Shown piece by piece: positions 42,681 through 59,039 of a stretch of DNA of 64,000 nt. The stretch is from Verrucomicrobiia bacterium. GTDB taxonomy: Bacteria > Verrucomicrobiota > Verrucomicrobiia > Limisphaerales > CAIMTB01. The notes under the pieces are model-generated. The model saw only the letters and a list, made by a program, of their open reading frames with translations, ran no database searches and was not told the DNA's origin. The stretch is taken from the NCBI GenBank assembly GCA_019634625.1, contig JAHCBA010000004.1, positions 62,001 through 126,000 of the forward strand, given 5' to 3'. Every line of letters begins with the position of its first letter. Within the stretch, counting starts at the first letter, position 1. Made by a program: the position numbers and the translations under genes.

Positions 42681-42968
42681 GCGCGGTCAACCTAGTGAGC
42701 CCACCCCAAAGCGTCAACGCAACCGTACCCACCCCCTCATCAACGAGGAACCCCGGAACCTCCCAAGAGGTCCCGGGGCGTGCCCTTGCTGCGCTCCGTG
42801 GGCCCCATCACGGTCTTGTGCGCAGCGCCACCTCCCTTCTCCTCTCCCCTCCCCAAAACGTCAACGGGAAGCCCTCACCCTCCCTTGTCATCGCCCCGCC
42901 AATCGCGTCCCCCTCGACAAACCCCCTGTAACCATATCAGCCTCACCCCCGTCCACCCACACCAGCTC

Positions 42969-44753
42969 GTGTTGCCCGTTCAGCCGCCCCTCCGCCAACT
43001 CCGACGCGCCGCCCCCGGCGCGCTCTTTTTTCCTGCCCTGCTCATCGCCTTCCTCGGCGTGCTGCTCGGCTCCGGTTGCTCCGCCAAACGCTACGAACGC
43101 GCCGCCGACCGCGAGGTGTACCGCATCATCGAGGAGGCCGAAAACCGCATCTTCGGTCGCACCAACCTCTTCTCCATAGCCACCCCGTACTCGGACCGCG
43201 ACCCGGCCTCCATTCACCCCGACGAGATCTTCGCGGAGCGTACCGCCCCGCAACGCCGGTTCATCCGCCTCGAGGAGGCCCTGGACCTCGCCGTCCGTCA
43301 CAGCCGCGAGTACCAGACCCAGAAGGAACAGCTCTACCTCGCCGCCCTGACTCTCACCGGCTCCCGGTACCAGTTCTCCCCCCAGTTCTTTGCCGGCTCC
43401 ACCGCCCAGGTCAGCGGCAGCCCGGCCGGCAGCGACATCGGCACCGTCCGTTCCCAGGTCGGCGTGAGCCAGTACCTCCGCACCGGCGGCCGTCTCAGCG
43501 CCGCCCTCGCCAACGACCTTCTTCGCTACTTCACCAGCTGGAGCGCCGGCTCGGGTCAGGGCCCCCGCGAAACCGCCGTCAGCCTCATCTCCGTCCAGCT
43601 CACCCAACCCCTCCTCCGTGGCTTCGGACGCAACGACCCGACCGTCGAAAATCTCACCCAGGCCGAACGCAACGTCGTGTATGCCATCCGCACCTACACG
43701 CAGTTCCAGCACCAGTTCGCCGTCAACGTGGTCAACGACTACTTCAGCCTCCTGGCCCTCAAGGATGTCGTCCGCAACAACCACATGGACTACCTCCGCC
43801 GCGTCGATATCACCCGCTACCTCGAGGCCCGGGCCGTGGACCGCGAACAGCAAAGCGCCGTCGATGACGCCCGCACCGCCGAACTCACCGCCCGCATCGG
43901 CTACATCAATTCCGTGGCCTCCTACCTCAACCAGATGGCCGCCTTCAAACTCACCCTGGGCGTCCCCATCCCCGAGGAGATCCACCTCGACGACGCCGAC
44001 CTCGACGATCTCATTGCCAAAGGCCTCCAGCCCATCCAGATCGCCAGCGAGGCGGGCTTCCGTCTGGCGGTCGATCAACACATGGACATCCTCAACGCCA
44101 TCGACCGCTTCGAGGACAGCCAACGCCGCCTTCGCGTCGCCGCCGACCAGTTGAAGGCCGACCTCGGCCTGTTCAGCACCGCCTCCCTCCAGTCCGAGGC
44201 CCCCACGGACTACGCCCGCTTCGACCTCGACGACCTCCGCTACTCGGTCGGACTCTCCCTCGACCTCCCCATCGACCGCCTCCGCGAACGCAACGCCTAC
44301 CGCGCCGCCCAGGTCTCCTTCGAATCCCAGGTCCGCTCCCTCGCCCTCACCCTCGACACCTTCAAGGATCGCATCGACCGCGGCCTCCGCACCCTCGAGC
44401 AGCGCCGTCTCAACTACCTCAACAGTCAGGCCTCCCTCGAAGTCGCCCGCCGCCGCGTCGAGTTCAATGCCCTCCGCCTCGAGGCCGGCCGCGTTCAGGT
44501 CCGCGATCTCCGCGAAGCCCAGGACTCCCTCATCGCCGCCCAAAACCAGGTCAATTCCACCCTCGTCACCTACCTCCAGTCCCGACTCCAACTGCTCCTC
44601 GACCTCGGTGTCCCCCGCTCCGAACAACCCGCCTTCTGGCTCGAAGATCCCCTCTCCGCCCGCCTTACCCCGGACCAGTTGGGGGAACCTCCGCTGCGAA
44701 TGCCCGATGGCGATGTCCTCCCTCCAGACTACTTTCTTGAACCGCGCCCATGA
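42969..44753 (+). CDS. TolC-like outer-membrane efflux lipoprotein
   Basis: 594 residues with a GTG start at 42969, chosen because it leads directly into a lipoprotein signal peptide (FFPALLIAFLGVLLGSGC, lipobox Cys37). The open frame extends upstream to 42780 but is Pro-rich and not signal-like. The mature part has the repeated helical OEP pattern (LEEALDLAVRHSREYQTQKEQ, RNVVYAIRTYTQFQHQFAVN, LEAGRVQVRDLREAQDSLIA) seen in TolC. It would form the outer-membrane exit duct. The stop overlaps the adaptor start as ATGA at 44750, so the operon is translationally coupled. Confidence 0.87.
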   Translation: MLPVQPPLRQLRRAAPGALFFPALLIAFLGVLLGSGCSAKRYERAADREVYRIIEEAENRIFGRTNLFSIATPYSDRDPASIHPDEIFAERTAPQRRFIRLEEALDLAVRHSREYQTQKEQLYLAALTLTGSRYQFSPQFFAGSTAQVSGSPAGSDIGTVRSQVGVSQYLRTGGRLSAALANDLLRYFTSWSAGSGQGPRETAVSLISVQLTQPLLRGFGRNDPTVENLTQAERNVVYAIRTYTQFQHQFAVNVVNDYFSLLALKDVVRNNHMDYLRRVDITRYLEARAVDREQQSAVDDARTAELTARIGYINSVASYLNQMAAFKLTLGVPIPEEIHLDDADLDDLIAKGLQPIQIASEAGFRLAVDQHMDILNAIDRFEDSQRRLRVAADQLKADLGLFSTASLQSEAPTDYARFDLDDLRYSVGLSLDLPIDRLRERNAYRAAQVSFESQVRSLALTLDTFKDRIDRGLRTLEQRRLNYLNSQASLEVARRRVEFNALRLEAGRVQVRDLREAQDSLIAAQNQVNSTLVTYLQSRLQLLLDLGVPRSEQPAFWLEDPLSARLTPDQLGEPPLRMPDGDVLPPDYFLEPRP

Positions 44754-46870
44754 ACCTCAAGTCCATCACCCACCGCCTTCCGGCCTCCCCGGGCCGCCGC
44801 TACGTCCTCCTTGGCGTCGCCGCCCTCCTCCTCATCGTCCTCATTGTCGCCGTCGCCACCCCCCGCGACTCCGCCGCGTCCACCGGCTTTCATGAGGTCC
44901 GCCGCGGCACCTTCACCGTCTCCATCGTCGAGGCCGGCAACCTCGCCGCCGTCAGCGAGGTCAGCATCCGCAGCGAGGTCGAAGGCACCGCCCGCATCAT
45001 CTACATCGTCCCCGAAGGCAGCTTCGTCCATCGCGGCGACATGATCGTCGAACTCGACTCCGCCCAGGCCGAGGACCAGGTCAACCAACAGCTCATCAAC
45101 TTCGAAAAAGCCCAGTTCGGCCTCATCCAGGCCCAGGAACAACTCTCCATTCAGAGAAGCGCCACCCAAAGCGACATCAGCGCCGCCGAACTCAAGGTCC
45201 GCTTCGCCGATCTCGACCTCGAGAAGTTCTTCCAGGGCCAGCGCGACGTGGATCTCATCGAGTCCAGCAATCGCGTCGTCCAGGCCGAAAACCAGCTCGC
45301 CATCGCCCTCGAAAACTACAACTGGACCACCAACCTCGCCGCCAAGGGCTACGAAACCCAGCAGAAGGTCGATAGCGACCGCCTCGCCGTCCTTAATCAG
45401 CGCAACGCCCTCATCGTCGCCACCAACACCCTCTGGCTCCTCCAGCAGTTCGATCTTCGCAAACTCCAGGAACAGTACGAGTCGAGTCTCGACGAAGCCC
45501 GCAAGGAACTCGACCGCGTCGTCGCCCAATCCCGCGCCCGCATCGCCCAGTCCCAGGCCGACCTCCTCACCCAGTCCAACACCCTCATCCTCAATCAACG
45601 CAAACTCGAACGCGACCGCCGCAACCTCGAAGCCACCAAGATCCACGCTCCCCAGGACGGCCTCGTCGTCTATGCCGTCAGCGAAAACCGCTTCTCCAGC
45701 GAGTCCCTCATCGAGGAAGGCGCCGTCGTCCGCAACCGCCAGGAAATCATCAAGCTCCCCGACACCTCCCGCATGAAGGTCACCGTCAAGGTGCACGAAT
45801 CCCACATCAACATGATCCGTGCCGGACTCCCCGCCTTCGTCATTCTCGACTCCATGCCCGATACCCGGTTCGCCGCCTACGTCGAGCGCGTCGGCCTCCT
45901 CCCCGACACCCAGAGCCGCTGGGGCAACCCCAACCTCAAGGTCTACAACACCGACGTCCATATCACCGATCCCCTCCCCGATGTGAAACCCGGCGTCTCC
46001 GCCCGGGCCGAAATCATCGTCACCAACATCGCCAACGCCCTCTCCGTCCCCATCCAGTCCGTCACCACCCACCGCGGTCGCCAGGTCGTCTATGTCCTCA
46101 ACCGCGGCACCCCCGAACCCCGCCCCGTCGAACCCGGCATGTACAACACCCGGTTCATCCAGATCCTCTCCGGCCTGAATGAGGGCGACCGCGTCCTCCT
46201 CGCCCCGCCCTTCGATTCCCAGGAACGTGACCTCGAAGGCTCGGTCCTCACCCCCGACGAACGAGCCGCTCTCACCAATGCCCCCGCCCGACCGGATTCC
46301 CGCCCCCGTCCCGCCCCCGGTGAATCCACCGCCATCCCCGGCGCCCCCGGCAGCAGCCTCGCCGCCCGGCCCGGAATTCCCGGCGCAAATCCCGGCGCCC
46401 CCACCACCCCCGGAGCAGCCGGTCCCGGCGCCCCAGGCGCCCCAGGCGCTCCCGGCGGTGCCGATTTCCAGGCCCTGATCCGACAGTACGACCGCGATGG
46501 CGACGGCCAGCTCAATGACGAGGAACGCGAGGCCATGCGCGCCGCCATGGCCGCCCGGTTCGCCGGCCAGGCCCAGCCCCGCGGCGCGGATGCCCAGGCC
46601 GCCCAAGGCCCGGGCTCGGCGCAGGGCCCGGGCGCAGGCCAGGGCGGCCCCCGCTTCAATCGCGAGGAAATGCTCCGCCAGTTCGACAAGGACGGCGATG
46701 GCGAACTGAACGAAGAGGAGCGCGCCGCCATGCGCCAGGCCCTCGGCGGCGGGCGTAACCGTGAGGGCGGTGGCGGTGGCGGTGGCGGTTTCGGCGGCGG
46801 AGGAGCCGGTCCCCGGGAGGGCGGCGGGGGTGGACGTCCAGGAGGACGCGCTGAACGCCCCCCCGAATAG
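44750..46870 (+). CDS. MacA/HlyD-type periplasmic adaptor with C-terminal EF-hands
   Basis: 706 residues. An N-terminal membrane anchor (YVLLGVAALLLIVLIVAVATP, about 18-38) precedes the membrane-fusion core: lipoyl-like VSIRSEVEGTARIIYIVPEG, a long coiled-coil hairpin (about 115-290) and IHAPQDGLVVYAV, then beta-barrel KVTVKVHESHINMIRAG. Up to about residue 505 it is a MacA-like adaptor. Beyond this is a ~190-residue Pro/Gly/Ala-rich tail with two EF-hand loops, DRDGDGQLNDEE (about 581-592) and DKDGDGELNEEE (about 646-657), and a final poly-Gly stretch. The EF-hand tail is unusual for adaptors and may sense or bind Ca in the periplasm. The gene bridges TolC-like and ABC transporter genes. Confidence 0.87.
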   Translation: MNLKSITHRLPASPGRRYVLLGVAALLLIVLIVAVATPRDSAASTGFHEVRRGTFTVSIVEAGNLAAVSEVSIRSEVEGTARIIYIVPEGSFVHRGDMIVELDSAQAEDQVNQQLINFEKAQFGLIQAQEQLSIQRSATQSDISAAELKVRFADLDLEKFFQGQRDVDLIESSNRVVQAENQLAIALENYNWTTNLAAKGYETQQKVDSDRLAVLNQRNALIVATNTLWLLQQFDLRKLQEQYESSLDEARKELDRVVAQSRARIAQSQADLLTQSNTLILNQRKLERDRRNLEATKIHAPQDGLVVYAVSENRFSSESLIEEGAVVRNRQEIIKLPDTSRMKVTVKVHESHINMIRAGLPAFVILDSMPDTRFAAYVERVGLLPDTQSRWGNPNLKVYNTDVHITDPLPDVKPGVSARAEIIVTNIANALSVPIQSVTTHRGRQVVYVLNRGTPEPRPVEPGMYNTRFIQILSGLNEGDRVLLAPPFDSQERDLEGSVLTPDERAALTNAPARPDSRPRPAPGESTAIPGAPGSSLAARPGIPGANPGAPTTPGAAGPGAPGAPGAPGGADFQALIRQYDRDGDGQLNDEEREAMRAAMAARFAGQAQPRGADAQAAQGPGSAQGPGAGQGGPRFNREEMLRQFDKDGDGELNEEERAAMRQALGGGRNREGGGGGGGGFGGGGAGPREGGGGGRPGGRAERPPE

Positions 46871-46929: not shown

Positions 46930-47670
46930 ATGTCCGCGGACTCCGCCATCATCCGCATCCAGGGCGTCGAGAAACGCTACGTCCTCGGCGGCGAAGCCGA
47001 CGTCCTCGCCCTCCGGGGTGTCCACCTCAGCATCGAGGAGGGCTCCTACGTCGCCATCATGGGCCCCTCCGGCTCCGGCAAGTCCACCATGCTCAACATC
47101 CTCGGCTGCCTCGACCGCCCCACCGCCGGCAGCTACTGGCTGGGCGGGGAGGATGTCTCGATCATGCCCGACGACGAACTCTCCGAGGCCCGCGGACGCA
47201 TGATCGGATTCATCTTCCAGTCCTACAACCTCATCGCCCAGCTGACCGTCATCGAGAACATCCAGGTCCCCCTCCTCTACCAGGGAGCCGACCTGCGCCA
47301 GTTCCAGGATCGCTGCATCGAACTCGCCCGCCTCGTCGGCCTCGGCGACCGCCTCCATCACCGCCCCAATCAGCTTTCCGGAGGTCAGCAGCAGCGCGTC
47401 GCCATCGCCCGATCCCTGGTGAATGACCCCGTCATGATCCTCGCCGACGAACCCACCGGCAACCTCGACTCCCGTACCGGCAAGGAGGTCCTCGACCTCA
47501 TCGACCAGCTCAACGCCAGCGGAAAAACCATCGTCCTCGTGACCCACGACGAACGCGTCGCCGCCCGCGCCCACCGCGTCATCCACATGAAGGACGGCCT
47601 CATCGATCGCGAGGTCCTCAATCGCCCCGTCCCCGGCTCTCCCGCCCCCCAACCGGTCCCCGTCGCCTGA
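46930..47670 (+). CDS. MacB/LolD-type ABC transporter ATP-binding protein
   Basis: 246 residues: Walker A IMGPSGSGKSTML, Q-loop FIFQSYNLIAQLT, signature LSGGQQQRVAIARS, Walker B VMILADEPTGNLDSR and H-loop VLVTHDERV. It matches the LolD/MacB ATPase group, in which ATP hydrolysis drives periplasmic mechanotransmission rather than transmembrane substrate transport. The partner permease follows after 55 bp. Together with the adaptor and the TolC-like protein it makes a tripartite pump; substrate unknown. Confidence 0.93.
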   Translation: MSADSAIIRIQGVEKRYVLGGEADVLALRGVHLSIEEGSYVAIMGPSGSGKSTMLNILGCLDRPTAGSYWLGGEDVSIMPDDELSEARGRMIGFIFQSYNLIAQLTVIENIQVPLLYQGADLRQFQDRCIELARLVGLGDRLHHRPNQLSGGQQQRVAIARSLVNDPVMILADEPTGNLDSRTGKEVLDLIDQLNASGKTIVLVTHDERVAARAHRVIHMKDGLIDREVLNRPVPGSPAPQPVPVA

Positions 47671-47725: not shown

Positions 47726-49030
47726 ATGGCCTCCCCGCTGAGCTTCCAGTTCGCCAGCATCGTCCGCCTCGGCATCAAGAGCCTCCTGCTCCACAAGCTG
47801 CGCTCCGGCCTGACCATGCTCGGCATCATCTTCGGCGTCTGCTCGGTGATCGCCATGCTGGCCATTGGCGAGGGCGCCTCGTTCGAAGCCCAGGAGGCCA
47901 TCAAACGCCTCGGCAGCAGCAACATCATCCTCCGCAGCATCAAGCCCCCCGAACAGGCCCGCCAGCAGTCCGGCGGAGGAGGGCCCCGCGGCATGCAGCT
48001 CAAGTACGGCCTCACCTACCAGGACGCCTCCCGCCTCCAGTCCACCATCCCGGGCGTGGTCCGCGTCGTCCCGATGCGCATCATCCGCGAAAACGTCCGC
48101 TACTCCCGCAACGAAATCCCCTGCCAGGTCATCGGCACCCTCCCCTCCTACACCGAGGTCGCCGGAGCCCGCATCGTCCGCGGCCGCTTCCTCGCCCACA
48201 TCGATGAGGTCCATCAGAACAATGTCTGCGTCATCACCACCGGACTCGCCCGCCGCCTCTTCCCCTCCGAGGATCCCATCGACAACACCATCAAGATCGA
48301 CGCCTTCTACTACCGGATCGTCGGGATCCTCGAGGAACAGAGCCAGCCTGAACAACGCACCCAGTCCGGCCGCATGGAGGGCGAACCCCTCGACAACAAC
48401 GTCTATATCCCCCTCTCCACCTCCCGCACCCGATTCGGCGAGGTCCTGATTCGCCGCACCGCCGGCAGCTTCGAAGCCGAGGAGGTCCAGCTCCACCAGA
48501 TCACCGTTCAAATGCAGGACACCGCGGCTGTCGAAACCGCCGATCCCCAGATCAAAGCCCTGCTCGACCGGTTCCATGACCAGCCGGACTTCGAGGTCAT
48601 TGTCCCCCTCCAACTCCTCCGCCAGGCCGAACAAACCAAGCGCATCTTCAATATCGTCCTCGGCTCCATCGCCGCCATCTCCCTCCTCGTCGGCGGCATC
48701 GGCATCATGAACATCATGCTCGCCAATGTGACCGAACGGACCCGCGAAATCGGCGTTCGCCGCGCCCTCGGCGCCAAGCGCCGCGACATCACCCGTCAGT
48801 TCCTTGTCGAAACCATTGTCCTCTCCGTCGGCGGCGGCCTCATCGGCGTGATCGTCGGTGTCCTCACCCCGGTCGTGGTCTCCCAGATCACCACCATGAA
48901 GACCATCGTCACCGTCTGGTCCGTCCTCATCGCCTTCGGCATCTCCGGCGCCATCGGCATCATCTTCGGCCTCTACCCCGCCCGCGCCGCCGCCCGCCTC
49001 GATCCCATCGACGCCCTCCGCCACGAATGA
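47726..49030 (+). CDS. MacB-like ABC transporter permease (FtsX domain)
   Basis: 434 residues. Helix 1 (LRSGLTMLGIIFGVCSVIAMLAIGEGA, about 28-54) is followed by a large MacB periplasmic domain (about 55-300). Three more helices with the FtsX motif follow: LGSIAAISLLVGGIGIMNIMLANVTERTREIGVRRALGAKRRDI, then GGGLIGVIVGVLTPVVV and the final GIIFGLYPARAAARLDPIDALRHE. It is the permease half for the ATPase at 46930. In MacAB-TolC systems such pumps expel macrolides, peptides or other periplasmic cargo. The operon ends here, before the RAYT gene on the opposite strand. Confidence 0.93.
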   Translation: MASPLSFQFASIVRLGIKSLLLHKLRSGLTMLGIIFGVCSVIAMLAIGEGASFEAQEAIKRLGSSNIILRSIKPPEQARQQSGGGGPRGMQLKYGLTYQDASRLQSTIPGVVRVVPMRIIRENVRYSRNEIPCQVIGTLPSYTEVAGARIVRGRFLAHIDEVHQNNVCVITTGLARRLFPSEDPIDNTIKIDAFYYRIVGILEEQSQPEQRTQSGRMEGEPLDNNVYIPLSTSRTRFGEVLIRRTAGSFEAEEVQLHQITVQMQDTAAVETADPQIKALLDRFHDQPDFEVIVPLQLLRQAEQTKRIFNIVLGSIAAISLLVGGIGIMNIMLANVTERTREIGVRRALGAKRRDITRQFLVETIVLSVGGGLIGVIVGVLTPVVVSQITTMKTIVTVWSVLIAFGISGAIGIIFGLYPARAAARLDPIDALRHE

Positions 49031-49097: not shown

Positions 49098-50078
49098 TCA
49101 CTCCACCGCCCGGACCCGGAGGTTCCGAAGCACCCTCAGCCCCGGCAGCTCCGCCCCCCGGATTGGTCGCGCCCCGCTCTTCCTGCGCCGGTCGAACTTT
49201 TCCCGGTGCCGCTCCCACATCGCATTCACAAAGGCCTCCGATCCCAGAAATACCCCGTCGGTCATGTGCCGAATCCTCCGCCGCAACAAGTCCGACACCG
49301 AGACCGGCGCCTCGGAGCCTGGCTCCTGCCCTGCGGCCTCCTTCCCGGCAGCCCCTCTCCCGGCCTTTCCCACGCCTCCCTCCGAAAACCCCATCAGCGC
49401 CCGGTACGCCGCCGCCGCCGCGGGCCAGTCCTTCGCCCCGAGCATCTCCGTCAGGCTCTTCCGCATCGCCCGGACACCGCCCAGCGCCGCCGCGTAACCC
49501 CCATAGGCATACTTTCCCGGATCCGCCACAAGCCCGGCACGCACCGGATTCAAGTCGATATAGGCCGCGATCAACCGCAAGACCTCGGGCGTGTCCTCAA
49601 CCATCACACTCCGAAACCGTTCGCCCCACAGAAATCCGTAGCGGTCGTGCCTCCTGTTGTACCAGCGCGTCACCCGCTGCTTGAACTCCGCCATAAACCC
49701 GGAAACCTCGCGCATCCGCGTGAGCACCCTCTCCCGGATCTTCTCCGGGATCGGTGCCCCCTCCTTCACCGCCGCCCGTGCCAGTTGGCTCGGCACGGCC
49801 TTGCGCCCATGAAACGCCTCGAGCTTGGCGACGATCTCCTCGTCGGTGAACGATTCCGCCGGCCGGCGTGTCGGCACCCGCACCAGCAGGTGAAAATGAT
49901 TGGGCATCATGCAGTAGGTGAGCACCTCCACCTCGCTGTACTCCCCCAATCGCCCCAGCAACCGAACCATTTCCCCCCTCGCCTCTTCATTGAGCATCGG
50001 CAGACCGCCCGCAACTCGGGACATGCAATGGTACACGCCGGCCTCGCCGACATCCGCCTTCAGCCTGGATAGTCTCAT
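49098..50078 (-). CDS. RAYT-type (REP-associated) Y1 HUH transposase
   Basis: 326 residues from the ATG at 50078 with AAAGGAG upstream; the frame further up to 50225 is not family-like. The HUH motif is MMPNHFHLLVRVP with H61 and H63. A WYNRRHDRYGFLWGERFRSV block follows, in which Tyr140 is the candidate nucleophile. The C-terminal AAYIDLNPVRAGLVADPGKYAYGGY is the hallmark of this Y1 family, related to IS200/IS605. RAYTs act on REP hairpins as single-copy domesticated genes. The length exceeds typical RAYTs (~150-230) because of an insertion and a ~100-residue C-terminal extension. No flanking IS ends are visible, but motif repeats lie immediately upstream. Confidence 0.87.
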   Translation of the reverse strand: MRLSRLKADVGEAGVYHCMSRVAGGLPMLNEEARGEMVRLLGRLGEYSEVEVLTYCMMPNHFHLLVRVPTRRPAESFTDEEIVAKLEAFHGRKAVPSQLARAAVKEGAPIPEKIRERVLTRMREVSGFMAEFKQRVTRWYNRRHDRYGFLWGERFRSVMVEDTPEVLRLIAAYIDLNPVRAGLVADPGKYAYGGYAAALGGVRAMRKSLTEMLGAKDWPAAAAAYRALMGFSEGGVGKAGRGAAGKEAAGQEPGSEAPVSVSDLLRRRIRHMTDGVFLGSEAFVNAMWERHREKFDRRRKSGARPIRGAELPGLRVLRNLRVRAVE

Positions 50079-50240
50079 CGGGTCTTCTCCTTTCAGTGCC
50101 CCATCCCTGAACCCGGGCCATCCTTCACCCCTGCCCCGCCCCAAGTCGAGCACGCTCCGCCCCCTCAAGTTGTCGCCGATCAACCCAACACGGACCACCC
50201 AGGGTCGAAACAGGGGGGTCAACATTCATCCATTTACCAA

Positions 50241-50727: not shown

Positions 50728-50807
50728 CCGGGGGAAACGCCGCCGTGCCCCTGGCATTGTCTTTCCCGCCCGGATTCGCCACCGTCCGCCGATTTTTCTC
50801 ACCGAAC

Positions 50808-53800
50808 GTGAACAAGACTAGGAGACTGCGGCACGGCTCGAAATGGATGGCGTGGATCTGGATGTGGACGTTCGCACTGGGAGCGTCCGCCGCGGCACCG
50901 CCGCATCTGGCGATCCGCCTGGACGCGGGCGGAGTGGAGTTGGAATGGGCCGCGGACGCGGGATCGTTCGTGCTGGAACAGACGTCGGCGCTGAGCGGCA
51001 CCCCGGCCTGGGCGCCGGCACCGGGTTCACCCCAACTGGCGGGCAACCGGGTCCGCTGGCGGCTGGCGCCATCGGGAAGCCCCCGATTCTACCGCCTGCG
51101 GGAAGGCGCCGGAGCGGGGGTGTCGGTCGCATCGAGTTCCCCCTATTCCGGGGAAACCGGCGTGTCCCTGACCCGGGAGACCATTCTGCGACTCAGCGGC
51201 CCAGTGGGCGCAGAGGTCGCGGAGTCCGATCTGCTGCAGGCGTGGTCCGGTGGGCGCCGGTTGCTCACCCGGACCGAGTGGTCGCGGGATCTGCGGACGG
51301 CGACGCTGTTCTACCTGGAACCGCTGCCGGCGGGCGCCCGGGTGGAGGTGATCCTGGACGGCCGGGACATCCAGGACGGGCTGGGACGACCCCTGGATCC
51401 GGACGGCGATGGGGTGCCGGGCGGAGAGTTCCGCCTTTCCTTCAGCACCGGTCGAATCGCCCCGGTGCCGGGCACGGTCGTGGTGGGCCGGGTGCTGGCC
51501 TCCGAACGGAACGCCGACGGCACCGATCGACCGTTGTCAGGAGTGATCGTCACCGTGGACGGTGCGGAGGAAACCTTGCGGGCGGTGACCGACGAGAACG
51601 GCGACTTCCAACTCGATCCGGCACCGGCAGGGCGATTCTTCGTCCACGTGGACGGCCGGCCGGCGGTGGGCAGCCAGTGGCCGACTGGCGGCTATTACCC
51701 CTTCATCGGCAAGGCGTGGGATGCGGTGGCGGGACGCGAGGATAATCCAGCGGGCGGGTCGGGGGTGGTGTACCTGCCCTTCATCCCCGGGGACGCCCTG
51801 CGGCCGGTGCATCCGACCGACATCACGGTGATCACCTTTCCGGAGGCGGTGGTGGCGGCGAACCCTGCCTTGGCGGGCGTGCGCCTGGAAATCCCTCCCA
51901 ACGGAGTGTTCAGCGACCAGGGGGTGCGGGGCGGAAGGGTGGGCATCGCGCCGGTGCCGCCAGACCGCTTGCCGGAACCGCTGCCGCCCGGGCTGAACCT
52001 GCCGTTGGTGATCACCGTCCAGACGGACGGCCCGGAGAACTTCGACCTGCCCGTGCCGGTGCGGTTTCCCAACCTGCCCGACCCCGTGACCGGCGAACGG
52101 TTGGGGCCGGGATCGAAGACAGTATTGTGGAGCTTCAATCATGACACCGGGCGATGGGAACCGCAGGGGCTGGCGACGGTGACCCCGGACGGGTTGTATG
52201 CCGCGACCGATCCCGGGGTGGGCCTGCGGCAGCCCGGATGGCACGGCCTGGCGCCCGGCACCGAAGGCGCTGGCCCGGAAGGCGATGGCAGCGATGAACC
52301 CGACTGCGGGGCCTACGCGGCGCGTTGCTGCGGAGACTGGGCGGAGAAAACCTCGCCCTGCCGGCCTGCCAGGGAGGCGGCCCTGGACAGCATCGGGGAC
52401 GTGGCGTTGGACAACGTCATCAACCTGGTCGCCGGGGATGCCGGATGCCCGATCGGAACGGCCCTGAGTGCCCAACGGGCGGCTCGCGATTGCGCGCGGG
52501 TGGGTCCGTTGACCGGTGCGTGTGTCGGCGTCCTCGACAGCGCCTACACCGGCGCACGGCTGGGCTGCCTGCCGGGAATCGGGAGCGCTCTGGGCCTGGC
52601 CTGGGGGTTGAAGGGCGCCATCGATGCGGCGATCGACTACCGGAGCTGCCTGGACACCGCGGCGGCGTCCTGCATCGGAGCGCCTGGACCGGCCCTGGCA
52701 GGCCTGGGTTCGACCACGGGCGACCCACGGTTGCTTCGGGCCCTGCGCCATCTCGAAATCCAGGAGCGCCTCATCCTTCGGGTCCAGGCCGCGCTGGGCA
52801 TCCTCCTCGGGCACTCCCGCTGGGCCGAGGTGTCGGACCCCGAACTCATGCCGGTGCATCGAGCCTTCATGACGCGGGTGCAGGAGGCCCTGAACCCGGC
52901 CGGACCGGGTGGGGCAGGTGTCACGACCGAAGAACGGACGGCGATTCTTGCGATGCCGCGTTGGAACGGAGCCACCGATGCGCAGGTCCTCGAATTTCTC
53001 GCCCGGCAGGAACAGGTGGCCCTGGGCACGGCGGACGCCACCGTGCGGGCGGAGTTGGCGGAGGGCTTCGACCGTCTGACCCTGGCAATCGCAGAAGTCG
53101 AGGCCGCGGGGTGGACCGGGTATTTCGACGGGTTGCACCGGGCCCTGGCGGAGTTCATGTCCATGCATCAACCGCGCCGGGGTGGATCCATCGGGTTCTC
53201 CGGAGCACGGCTTGCCCCGGCATCGGGAACCCCGGCCGCAGCCAGCCCGGCGGCGGGTCCGGCGGCATTCCCGGAGGCGCCCATGTTTTACGCCCTGCGC
53301 GATCTCAACAGCGGCTTCGTGACCCGCGGACGGCTCAACGCCAACGGCCGGTTCACGGAACTGTTCCTGCGCCCGAACGCCCACTACTCGGTCGCGTACT
53401 ACGATCCCACCACGGCGCGATTCGGCGTGACGGTGTTCCGCAGCGCGGAGGCGGGCATGCCAACCGTCGTCCCCACGGCGCCCCTTCGCTACAACGGACG
53501 TTCCTCCCCAGGCGGGGCGATGCTGGCCGACACCGACAACGATGGCTTGCCGGACGTCGTCGAGGCCGTGGTGGGAACCGACCCACGCAACCCGGACACC
53601 GACGGGGATGGCGTGTCGGACGGGGACGAGGTGCGGCTGGGGCTGGATCCTCTCGACGGGGCGGGGTTGCAAACGGGAGTGCTGGCGCGGGTGCCGACGC
53701 CCGGGCAAGCCTTCGAAGTGGCGGCGGGCAACGGGTGGCTGCTGGCGGCCTGCTCGACAGGCCTGGCGGTCGTGGACATCCGGGACTCATCCGAGCCGGT

Positions 53801-56800
53801 GGTGGCGCGGGTGGAACCGGGTCAGGTCAAGGCCGTGGCCCTTCGCGGTCGGGTGGGCGTGGCCCTGCAGGAAAACCGGGTCACAGGCTGGCTCCTGCGC
53901 GAAGGCGGTGTGGCCGACCTCACCTGGGAACGGACCGACCTGCCCCATCCAACCGCCGTGGCCATCGGGGGCGAGTCGGTGTGGCTGGGACATGGAAATC
54001 TCCTGCGGCGGCTGGACCCGGCAACGGGCCGTGACCTCATGGAACCTGTCACCTGGCCGGTGCGGATCGCACGGTTGATGGAGTCTGGAAACCGGATCCA
54101 CACCCTGGGGGATGGCCTTCTGGTTCATGGACCCATCCTGCGCCAGGGCGGCGTGCTGCCCGCGGGCCGCGTGCCCGCCCCGGGCAACGTGGGAGCGGGC
54201 CTTTCCGGATTGGAACGACAATGGGCGAGCCTCGACGATCAGCTCCTGGTGACCCATCAACAGGGTTACAGCCATTTCGATCTGAGCGATCCGGACCAGC
54301 CGCAATTGGTCCGGAATGTGAACACCGCCCAGGCCGGCTGGCGCCATCTCATGCCGCTGCAAAACGGCCGCGCGCTGGCCGTGGTGTCCGCCAACAGCAC
54401 CGACACGCGCGTGGACCTTTCCATCTTCCAATGGGCCCCGTCGGATGAGTCCCCAACCTTCCTGTCCCAGATCGCCACCCCGGGCACCGCCTTCTCCCTC
54501 GCCATGGCCGGCGGAATCGCCTACGTGGCGGACGGGCCCGGCGGCGTCACCGTGGTGCGTCCCTTCCCCGCCGACCTGTCCGGAGTGCCTCCCACGGCGG
54601 AACTGGTTCGCCATGGGCAGGGTCCGGACCGCGACCTGGTCGAGGCCGGTGACGCCTTGCGGCTCCAGGTGCGGGCGACCGACGACGTCGGGGTGCGGGA
54701 CGTGGTCTTTCTCATTGATGGCGTCGAGGTGTCGCGCACCGACCACCGGCCCTGGGAAGTCCTGCATCGCGTGCCTGCACGCGGGCCGGGCGGTTCGGAC
54801 TCGTTCGAGGCCCGGGCACGCGTCGTGGATGTCGGAGGCAACGTGCGGGAAACCGGCCCGGTGCGATACCGGGTGGTGGCGGACGCCTACCCGCCGGAGG
54901 TGTTGTCCGTGGAACCGATTGCCCTGAGCGCCATCGTGCCAGGCGTGCTCGGTGAGGTGAGCGTGCACTTCGACGAACCGGTGGTGAATCCGGCCACCCC
55001 GGACCTGCTGGGACTGGTGCACAAGGTGGACGAATCGCCTGTGCCCGGCGCCGTGGCGTGGAGTGAAGACCGTCGGCGACTGGTCTTCACCACCGCGGGC
55101 CCGATCGTGCAGGGGGAATATCGGGCGACCTTGTCGGCCGGACTGGCCGATGCCTCGGGGAACCAGCGCCCGGGCCCGTTGACCTGGGAATTCGCCACCG
55201 GCACCGAACCGCGGGCCATCGAATCCTTCCCCACCGGTGTCGGCACCCATGTGGCGGTGGGAGGTAGTCTGGAGGAGGCCTGGTATCGCTTTGACCAGCC
55301 CTTGCTCGCATCGTCCCTGGCGGCGGCGACCTTGACCGTGACCCGGCTTTCGGAGACCGGGCCTTTCGTTCCCTTCGGCCCGGTGGAACTGCGTGCCAGC
55401 GCCGATCGCCGCCTGCTCACCGTGCGGGCCGACCCATCGTTCCCTCCCGGCCGGTATCGGGTGCAGATCAACGCCCCCTTCACCCAGGCTGTCTTCCATG
55501 AGTTCCAGTTCCGGAATGTGGGCAATGCCTGGCTGCCGGGGCCTGCCGGGGGCGGCGTCTGGACCTTCCCTCCCGGACCGGCGCCCTGGGACGAGGTGCT
55601 CATCGACGCACCCGGGACCCTGCCGACCTTCACGGTCCTGCCATCCCTGGTGTCGCTGGTGGCGCGGTCGGGTCTGACCCTCGCCAACCAGACGCTGCAT
55701 GTCGAACGGCCCATTGAGGTGCACGGGCCGCTGGTCCTGAGCAGCGTGCGGTTCGGGGCGGGTGAAACCCGGGCCTGGGGATCGGCGCGGTTCTCGGGAA
55801 TCTTCGGGGGCAACTTCCTGATGGACCTCGGACCCCATTCGTTCCATGCCCACGGTGGCCTTCGCATCAGCGGGTTCGTCGAGTTCCGGCATCCCATGGG
55901 GCAGGTGGTGAATCACCCGGGAAGCCTGCTCGAGTTCGATCACGGCGCGACCGTGCAGCCTTTGGGTCAGGACCCCGCCGCCCTGGGGGCGGGAAGGATC
56001 CTGAACCTGGGGACCCTGCGAACCCTGGGCACCTCGACCAACCTGCCCATGCGCCTGGAGGGCGTGCGGTTCCGCAACGAGGGCCGCATGGAAGTGCCCA
56101 CCGGCGGGTTGCTCATGGTCAACCTGGAGCACCACGGCGAACTGGAAGTGGGCGACGAGGCCCGGCTGATCCTGGCGCACCGCCTCCGGGGCGGCGCCTC
56201 CTCGCGCATCACCGGGGCAGGCACCCTCGAGTTTGGCGAATACAACACCAGCACCCGGCGCGTGATTTACGACGCCGACACCGACTACCGCGGCACCCTC
56301 GAGACCACCGGCCCCCTGGTGGTGCAGGCTGGCCAGCTCACCCTCTGGCGGCCCCTGGTCCGGCCCGGGGGCAACGTGGACCTGCTCAACTCCAGCCGGC
56401 TTCATCTCCTCGCCCCCTCCCAACTGGGCCAGGTCCGGGTGAGCGGCGGGTTGCTGCACCTCAATGCCGACAGCGACCTGGCGGGGATCGAGGTGACCCT
56501 CAGTTCCAGGGTACGCGTCGATGGCGTCACCCGGGTCCATGGCGACAACCTCGTTCGAGGCATCGATCTTTCAGGATCGGGCCGGCTCGAGTTCACCGGG
56601 CTGAACACCCTGTCCAATGGCAACCAGCAGCTCGTTCTGCGGGTCGGAGGCCCGGCGCTCGTCAACCGCGGCACATTCCATTTCGCATCGGGCTCGGCCC
56701 AGGGCAGTCATCTGAGGGCCACCTTCGAAGGGCTCGGCACCTTCGAGAATCATGGGGAAATCGTCGGAACCACCCCGCGGCCCATCCAGTTCCTCCTCCC

Positions 56801-57377
56801 GCTCATCAATCACGGCCGCATCCGGTTCATCACGCAAACCGTCAGCTTCGACGCCCGCGACGGCTTCATTCCCCTCGGCGATGCGTATCGGCCGGCCCCC
56901 GGATCGGAACTGCTGCTTCAGAACACCACACTCGATCACAATCACGCCGGAACCCTGGACCTCGCCGCCGGCGTGCTCGCAGGCACGGGTTCTGTCACGG
57001 CCGTGAACAGCCTCATCGAGCCTCCGCCCCGCATCCTCAACCGCGCCCTCCTCCGCGTGGGCCATCCCACCGGCACCCTCACCCTGCGCGCCACCGGCGG
57101 ATTCGAGCAGACCGCCGAGGGGGAGATGGAGTTCACCCTGGGACCGGGCGATAACAGCCGGCTCACCCTCAACCAGACCGCCGCAACCCTGGCAGGTCGT
57201 CTGCGGGTCCGCCTGGCGGAAGGCTACCAACCCCCCGTGGGCACCACGGTCACCCTCCTCACCTGCTCGGGCCGGACCGGCGAATTCACCGAAGTCGTGG
57301 GCGATCCAGGCCCCGGCCGACGTTGGGAGGTGGTGTACGAACCCAATGCCGTATCCCTCCAGGTCCTGGCGCCCTGA
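50808..57377 (+). CDS. Giant secreted multidomain protein (Ig-like, TSP3, beta-helix)
   Basis: 2189 residues from the GTG at 50808, which yields the signal peptide ending FALGASAAA; an ATG at 50847 is also possible. Domain order by eye: an SbsA/Big_5-like Ig domain ([22 protein letters not shown], about 105-215), a carboxypeptidase-regulatory-like beta domain ([10 protein letters not shown] to ~290), a Cys-containing helical middle (about 490-620), thrombospondin type-3-like DTDNDGLPD and DTDGDGVSD Ca loops (about 905-945), LVIVD-like beta-propeller segments (about 960-1250), a second Ig-like and Big_5 pair (1260-1465), and a long beta-helix-like C-terminal half. It should be surface-exposed or secreted, for adhesion or matrix, but the role is unknown. 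No PEP-CTERM tail is present. Confidence 0.8.
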
Positions 57378-58697: not shown

Positions 58698-59039
58698 ATG
58701 ATCACCCCCCGGGCCATTCTTGTGGCGCTGCTTCTCGCCGCCGCCGGCTGCATCCAAACGAAGGAAACCGTCTATCGCGACGAGGAACGCCTCGCCGTCG
58801 AGTTCGAGACCGACCTTGCCGCCCGCACTTTCTACGAAACCCTGAGCCGCCTGCCGGACCGCGGCCACCAGCACGAGAGCCAGACCCGGGTCAACCTGCC
58901 CATCCTGCTCGATCACGAACGCAAAGTCGTCCGCGGCCAGAACCTCGCCTTCAACGAAGCCGTCCGCCGGTGCGATACCAACCGCGACGGACGCATCACC
59001 GAGATGGAAGCCCGGATCTTCTCGGATCAGATCCGCTGA
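58698..59039 (+). CDS. EF-hand lipoprotein
   Basis: 113 residues. The lipobox is LLLAAAGC (Cys18), so it should be lipid-anchored. A C-terminal EF-hand loop DTNRDGRITEME (about 93-104) suggests Ca binding. The middle has no recognised family. The last 13 bp overlap the convergent 59027-60334 gene. Its neighbours give no functional hint. Confidence 0.72.
   Translation: MITPRAILVALLLAAAGCIQTKETVYRDEERLAVEFETDLAARTFYETLSRLPDRGHQHESQTRVNLPILLDHERKVVRGQNLAFNEAVRRCDTNRDGRITEMEARIFSDQIR

Follow-up and report, generated by a model that had tools for sequence, protein, structure and literature searches.

A MacA-type adaptor of a verrucomicrobial tripartite exporter carries a C-terminal tail with predicted calcium-binding EF-hands

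The periplasmic adaptor of a predicted MacB-like exporter from a Verrucomicrobiia bacterium ends in a low-complexity tail, in which we could confirm two complete predicted calcium-binding EF-hands; comparable tails recur throughout a large clade of orthologues. The gene lies in a stretch of 64,000 nucleotides (contig JAHCBA010000004.1, positions 62,001 to 126,000), which we refer to as the window and whose first letter is position 1 for all coordinates given below. A normal adaptor core followed by a tail with two EF-hands had been described in a sequence-only reading of this DNA, as had the unusual nature of such loops for MacA/HlyD adaptors, and both descriptions hold in the light of the Pfam, loop and AlphaFold2 results presented here.

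The adaptor gene (44750..46870, forward strand; 706 aa, assigned as MacA-type by Pfam, TIGR01730 and its PDB relatives) runs from an ATG at 44750 to a stop at 46870, exactly where it had been placed before, and is the second gene in an operon-like run of four on the forward strand. Its start overlaps the 3' end of gene 1, encoding a TolC-like outer membrane efflux protein (42780..44753; Pfam OEP, 1.2e-17), and it is followed by gene 3 for an ABC transporter ATPase of the MacB/LolD type (46930..47670; Pfam ABC_tran, 7.7e-32, with a MacB model as the best NCBIfam match) and gene 4 for a MacB-like permease (47726..49030; Pfam MacB_PCD, 1.5e-39, and FtsX, 4.1e-21). Judged by these matches, the four genes are predicted to encode an ABC-type tripartite exporter composed of a TolC-like channel, a MacA-type adaptor, a separate ATPase and a MacB-like permease. 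The partners of a MacA-like adaptor, a MacB-type transporter and a TolC-type channel, are thus encoded in the same run, and they are conserved in relatives with and without EF-hands, where the gene order is the same wherever the flanking sequence suffices. A 715-aa antisense ORF over the adaptor gene was set aside as a presumed high-GC artefact. Directly downstream of the operon, on the reverse strand, lies an ORF (49098-50225) that by eye resembles a REP-associated tyrosine transposase.

Over its first ~500 residues, where the normal core ends, the protein is a member of the periplasmic adaptor (membrane fusion protein) family, with HlyD-type domains above the curated Pfam cut-offs (HlyD_D23, 3.6e-10, 39.9 bits against 30; HlyD_3, 3e-7, 31.6 bits against 22.2) and a score of 113 bits for TIGR01730, the NCBI RND_mfp subfamily model, whose cut-off is 94.9. 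It is not a MacA in the strict sense, reaching 69.4 bits for the NCBI equivalog NF008606 against a cut-off of 342; its closest PDB sequence relatives in a phmmer search are the MacA structures 4dk1, 4dk0, 9qgy and 5nik. MacA-like adaptors form hexamers with a glutamine gate ring in their lipoyl domains (PMC13328181). AlphaFold2, for which the alignment was shallow (eight sequences), placed a helix at residues 15-36 (44792..44857, forward strand), which together with the hydrophobic sequence of this segment suggests an N-terminal membrane helix. It further predicted a long alpha-hairpin at residues 105-296 (45062..45637, forward strand) with helices at 105-198 and 204-296 and a block pLDDT of mostly 87-96. 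At 1.5 Å per residue, these helices of ~93 residues each would measure roughly 140 Å, which is comparable with the 127 Å coiled coil of EmrA, even though the adaptor's partner is a MacB-like transporter; the top Foldseek match of the adaptor was likewise EmrA (4tko).

The tail comprises approximately residues 497-706 (46238..46867, forward strand) and is rich in Gly, Pro and Ala, with a Gly-rich end and a pLDDT mostly below 35 outside its two EF units. Unit 1 spans residues 571-605 (46460..46564, forward strand) with the loop DRDGDGQLNDEE at residues 581-592 (46490-46525), and unit 2 spans residues 636-667 (46655..46750, forward strand) with the loop DKDGDGELNEEE at residues 646-657 (46685-46720); both were delineated by Pfam, AlphaFold2 and the loop motif. 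Pfam EF-hand_1 (PF00036) matched two stretches of the adaptor (4.2e-7, 29.5 bits against a cut-off of 25.4), and the EF-hand pair model PF13499 yielded 23.7 against a cut-off of 30. Ligand residues are present at positions 1, 3, 5, 9 and 12 of both loops, which agree with the first 12 positions of the PROSITE PS00018 pattern and depart from the full pattern in having Arg rather than a hydrophobic residue at position 13. When the 211-residue tail was shuffled 100,000 times, at least one loop arose in 54 cases and two loops never did. Structure prediction, which had been suggested as a check, returned helix-loop-helix elements at both loops (residues 571-605 and 638-665, block pLDDT mostly 74-89) within an overall poor model; when the tail was modelled by itself, the same elements reappeared on an unstructured linker, without confident packing of the EF-hands (pTM 0.31). 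The two loops are separated by 65 residues, and the models show no packing of one against the other. A Foldseek search with the tail gave no significant match, EF-hand proteins being found only among the non-significant ones, while phmmer matched calmodulins to approximately residues 568-672 of the adaptor with E-values of 4e-4 to 1e-2.

The nearest records belong to Verrucomicrobia, with subdivision 3 and Pedosphaerales genomes among them, which agrees with an assignment to Verrucomicrobiota. A search with the core covered 196 genomes of the order and found an orthologue at E<=1e-100 in 66 of them. EF loops were found in 40 of the 69 orthologue ORFs (window protein included), 27 having one loop and 13 having two. 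The protein L040 from Phycisphaerales was matched by EF units only and was rejected as a multi-EF protein that is not an adaptor. Using an anchor of D at position 1, G at position 6, a hydrophobic residue at position 8 and another one before D1, with positions 3, 5, 9 and 12 ignored, we collected 53 loops of the family. All 53 fit calcium, with N/D at position 3, D/N at position 5, D/N/S at position 9 and E at position 12 (D1 being part of the anchor), and 42 of them have R at position 13. They reside in a recurring unit, FNREEMLKQFDKDGDGELxEEERAAMRQAF, amid strongly divergent linkers that are conserved neither in sequence nor in length. For the two closest pairs (L007/L067 and L011/L078), dN/dS was 0.03 and 0.01 in the EF units, 0.03 and 0.03 in the core, and 0.24 and 0.19 in the linker, where the EF-unit values derive from few codons (60 and 30); most less closely related pairs show saturation at the synonymous sites of the EF units. 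Ligand conservation and dN/dS together point to selection for the calcium site itself, and in combination with the shuffles they rule out the EF loops as a product of chance or composition. As the EF-hands were kept intact while the linker changed freely, these comparisons suggest that the conserved EF-hand knob serves a genuine function, one that standard adaptors dispense with.

In a midpoint-rooted IQ-TREE phylogeny, the distribution of the EF tail entailed 3 state changes compared to 21.8 in shuffles, and in a tree with orthologues from outside the order as outgroups all EF-bearing rows fell into one clade of 43 (FastTree local support 0.999), within which core identity goes down to ~43%. 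Two origins, as left open by midpoint rooting, are not needed once the outgroups are added, and the simplest reading of these trees is one gain in a large clade of the order with few losses. Within this clade, 40 of the 43 rows have EF loops, so that the possibility of a tail confined to this protein, or of loops absent from close relatives, does not apply, and with EF tails in 40 orthologues of the order a tail unique to the window protein is ruled out. The three exceptions are a broken ORF fragment, the orthologue L081 with a loopless helix pair, and a weakly placed protein without a tail that comes from a different order of the class. In the sister clade, most orthologues lack both the EF and the helix unit, indicating that the pump can do without them.

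Helix pairs without an EF loop, for example RKRFESMTPEEREAMGRRM, were found in nine orthologue tails outside the order and in L081, L094 and L098 within it. Aligned with the EF version, the loopless form reads REEMRKRF-ESMTPE-ERESMRARFGG against REEMLRQF-DKDGDGELNEE-ERAAMRQALGG, and it occupies a comparable membrane-proximal, G-rich segment of the adaptors. Outside the order, the tails of L152-L157, L160-L162 and L164 contain helix pairs or repeats like RRRFENMSAEEREAMRKRFESMTPEEREAM that are weakly DUF3106-like (L162 by eye). In a second family of MacA-type adaptors, a G-rich segment is inserted into the C-terminal domain, flanked by VPNAALRFRP and VYVL; it harbours an EF-hand in one genome (L173/L188) and loopless units, such as NREEMRKRFESMTPEERESMRARFGGG, in many others; L173 (G023:C3:103000-107000), the same gene as L188, encodes a 505-aa MacA-type adaptor with a single EF-hand in a Gly/Arg-rich loop. 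We built a profile from the two helices on either side of the EF loops in the window family, on which the top eight loopless units scored 26-46 compared to a mean of 49 for EF units, where the inter-helix gap was picked for the best score and thus flatters the loopless units somewhat; the weaker ones fell to chance level. Non-adaptor EF-hands of the same genomes mostly stayed at or below 24, a single quinoprotein-like protein reaching 37.7. The best loopless units likely share descent with the EF-flanking helices, convergence on an amphipathic hairpin being possible, and the calcium loop seems to be one form that a more general hairpin of tethered helices can take. That two MacA-type families of the phylum share a tethered helix pair at their membrane-proximal end, with a turn formed by a short S/T-P-E in some cases and by a calcium loop of 12 residues in others, is a tentative and somewhat doubtful reading; if true, it would offer a living example of EF-hand gain or loss by loop insertion or deletion between fixed helices, as well as a calcium-dependent clasp in a tripartite pump. 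The exchange of EF-hand and loopless forms at a comparable place would provide a natural series for how calcium sites arise or vanish.

Within the same order, EF units with Gly-rich linkers are likewise present in a number of unrelated protein types. Six predicted secreted proteins that by eye are CotH-like (L176, L181, L183, L185, L186 and L187) carry them, among them L181 from the window's own genome, and three predicted secreted enzymes (L174, L177 and L178), by eye similar to copper-dependent monooxygenases and with a CxxCH motif, have a single terminal EF unit; their presence in CotH-like and other predicted secreted proteins marks the EF module as mobile. A survey of the Dx[DN]xDG calcium motif found a bias towards secreted, surface and periplasmic proteins and probably many convergent origins (PMC3123361), with which the adaptor tail fits. 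In the window itself, a 2210-aa predicted surface protein (50745-57377) contains a DTDNDGLPD stretch that by eye resembles bacterial thrombospondin type 3 calcium repeats. The EF-hand that had been noted in a lipoprotein at 58698 was recovered as one EF-like loop, DTNRDGRITEME, in a predicted lipoprotein (~58950-59009), where it stays below the Pfam cut-off; we found no link between this lipoprotein and the pump.

In MacAB-TolC, MacA has its last domain oriented towards the inner membrane and MacB. Given this orientation and the predicted N-terminal membrane helix, the tail should hang in the periplasm near MacB. The best explanation of the EF tail, to which we would assign an even chance, is a constitutive calcium-stabilised docking or clasp module. 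In the calcium-rich periplasm, canonical loops would be loaded with calcium most of the time, and the bound calcium would keep the short helix pair folded, forming a knob on a string. Such knobs could dock on a partner, MacB or another protein, or on each other, with a structural job being most likely, and it is plausible that the tail attaches to a partner. Two-loop tails may pair in cis, while single loops would pair, if at all, in trans between neighbouring protomers; for EF pairing in trans, a precedent exists in a synthetic single-EF peptide that forms a two-site homodimer (1cta) and was among the weak structural matches of the tail. Docking of this kind would help to hold the adaptor ring or to capture MacB, and related adaptors would use their similar loopless helix pairs for this purpose, with no need for calcium.

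The sequence-only reading had raised the possibility that calcium gates the pump, which would mean that its binding and release switch the coupling between adaptor and MacB and that export follows envelope calcium. Canonical loops with an invariant Glu12 suit calcium, and the tail emerges from the domain which in MacA of MacAB-TolC is established to contact MacB; however, calcium sensors usually use paired EF-hands, whereas 27 of the 40 tails have one loop. Moreover, related adaptors have a loopless hairpin at a comparable place, so the element can exist without calcium, or, as in most sister orthologues, they have no unit at all, which makes gating less likely than docking. In a 2026 adaptor review, calcium and EF-hands go unmentioned, and calcium control with them (PMC13328181). 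We therefore do not favour gating and regard it as very unlikely.

Contact with the envelope would be another way to employ such a tail, if the calcium knob and a basic linker bound peptidoglycan, lipid head groups or another secreted calcium-binding protein and thereby positioned the pump in the envelope. The linker without its EF units is indeed net positive in the ten tails computed (+1 to +7), and similar EF units are found in other predicted exported proteins, such as the CotH-like and quinoprotein-like ones, but the lack of conservation in linker sequence and length argues against anchoring, and we consider it unlikely. The occurrence of Gly-linked EF units in unrelated protein types, and the fast drift of the flanking linker, would also agree with a promiscuous secreted module of little pump-specific function that spread and was kept because it folds and is harmless. 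This seems quite unlikely to us, given that the EF units are under purifying selection of the same strength as the core and that 40 of the 43 clade rows have kept them over deep divergence. Lastly, the tail could bind a cation substrate for export, as the adaptors CusB and ZneB bind exported metals, and ZneB (3lnn) was among the structural matches; yet the transporter is a MacB-type ABC pair and not a heavy-metal RND pump, and calcium is not a known substrate of MacB-type pumps, making this explanation exceedingly improbable.

While tripartite-pump adaptors are usually treated as a standard domain set, a conserved and selected calcium-binding module on one of them would represent a new means by which pumps are assembled or tuned. 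Our literature search for EF-hand, MacA and MacB together returned nothing, and searches for EF-hand with HlyD or with periplasmic adaptor returned titles on other subjects only; in the literature searched, we found no paper that links an EF-hand to a MacA-type adaptor.

The closest known counterpart is MacA of MacAB-TolC (E. coli 5nik and 9qgy; A. actinomycetemcomitans 4dk0), with which the adaptor shares the HlyD-type architecture, the N-terminal membrane helix, and the adjoining MacB-like permease and TolC-like channel. It differs from MacA by the additional EF-hand tail of ~200 residues, by alpha-hairpin helices of ~93 residues each, and by an ATPase and a permease encoded in separate genes. 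The long alpha-hairpin is reminiscent of the EmrA and HlyD adaptors (4tko, 5c21), which have long coiled coils but different partner transporters and for which, to our knowledge, no EF-hand tail has been described. The resemblance to DUF3106 (PF11304) is weak and belongs to the loopless units of sister adaptors, which scored 18-20 bits, below the cut-off of 24.3; in the window protein, EF loops take their place. Bucl8-type outer membrane factors provide another case of a tripartite-pump component with an added low-complexity region at its C-terminus, although Bucl8 is the outer-membrane component and the part of it that is described has a collagen-like region and no EF-hands (PMC8277102). With canonical EF-hand proteins, such as calmodulin and polcalcins, the adaptor units have the loop residues and the predicted helix-loop-helix in common, but they are tethered on an unstructured linker, often comprise a single loop, and carry Arg rather than a hydrophobic residue at position 13.
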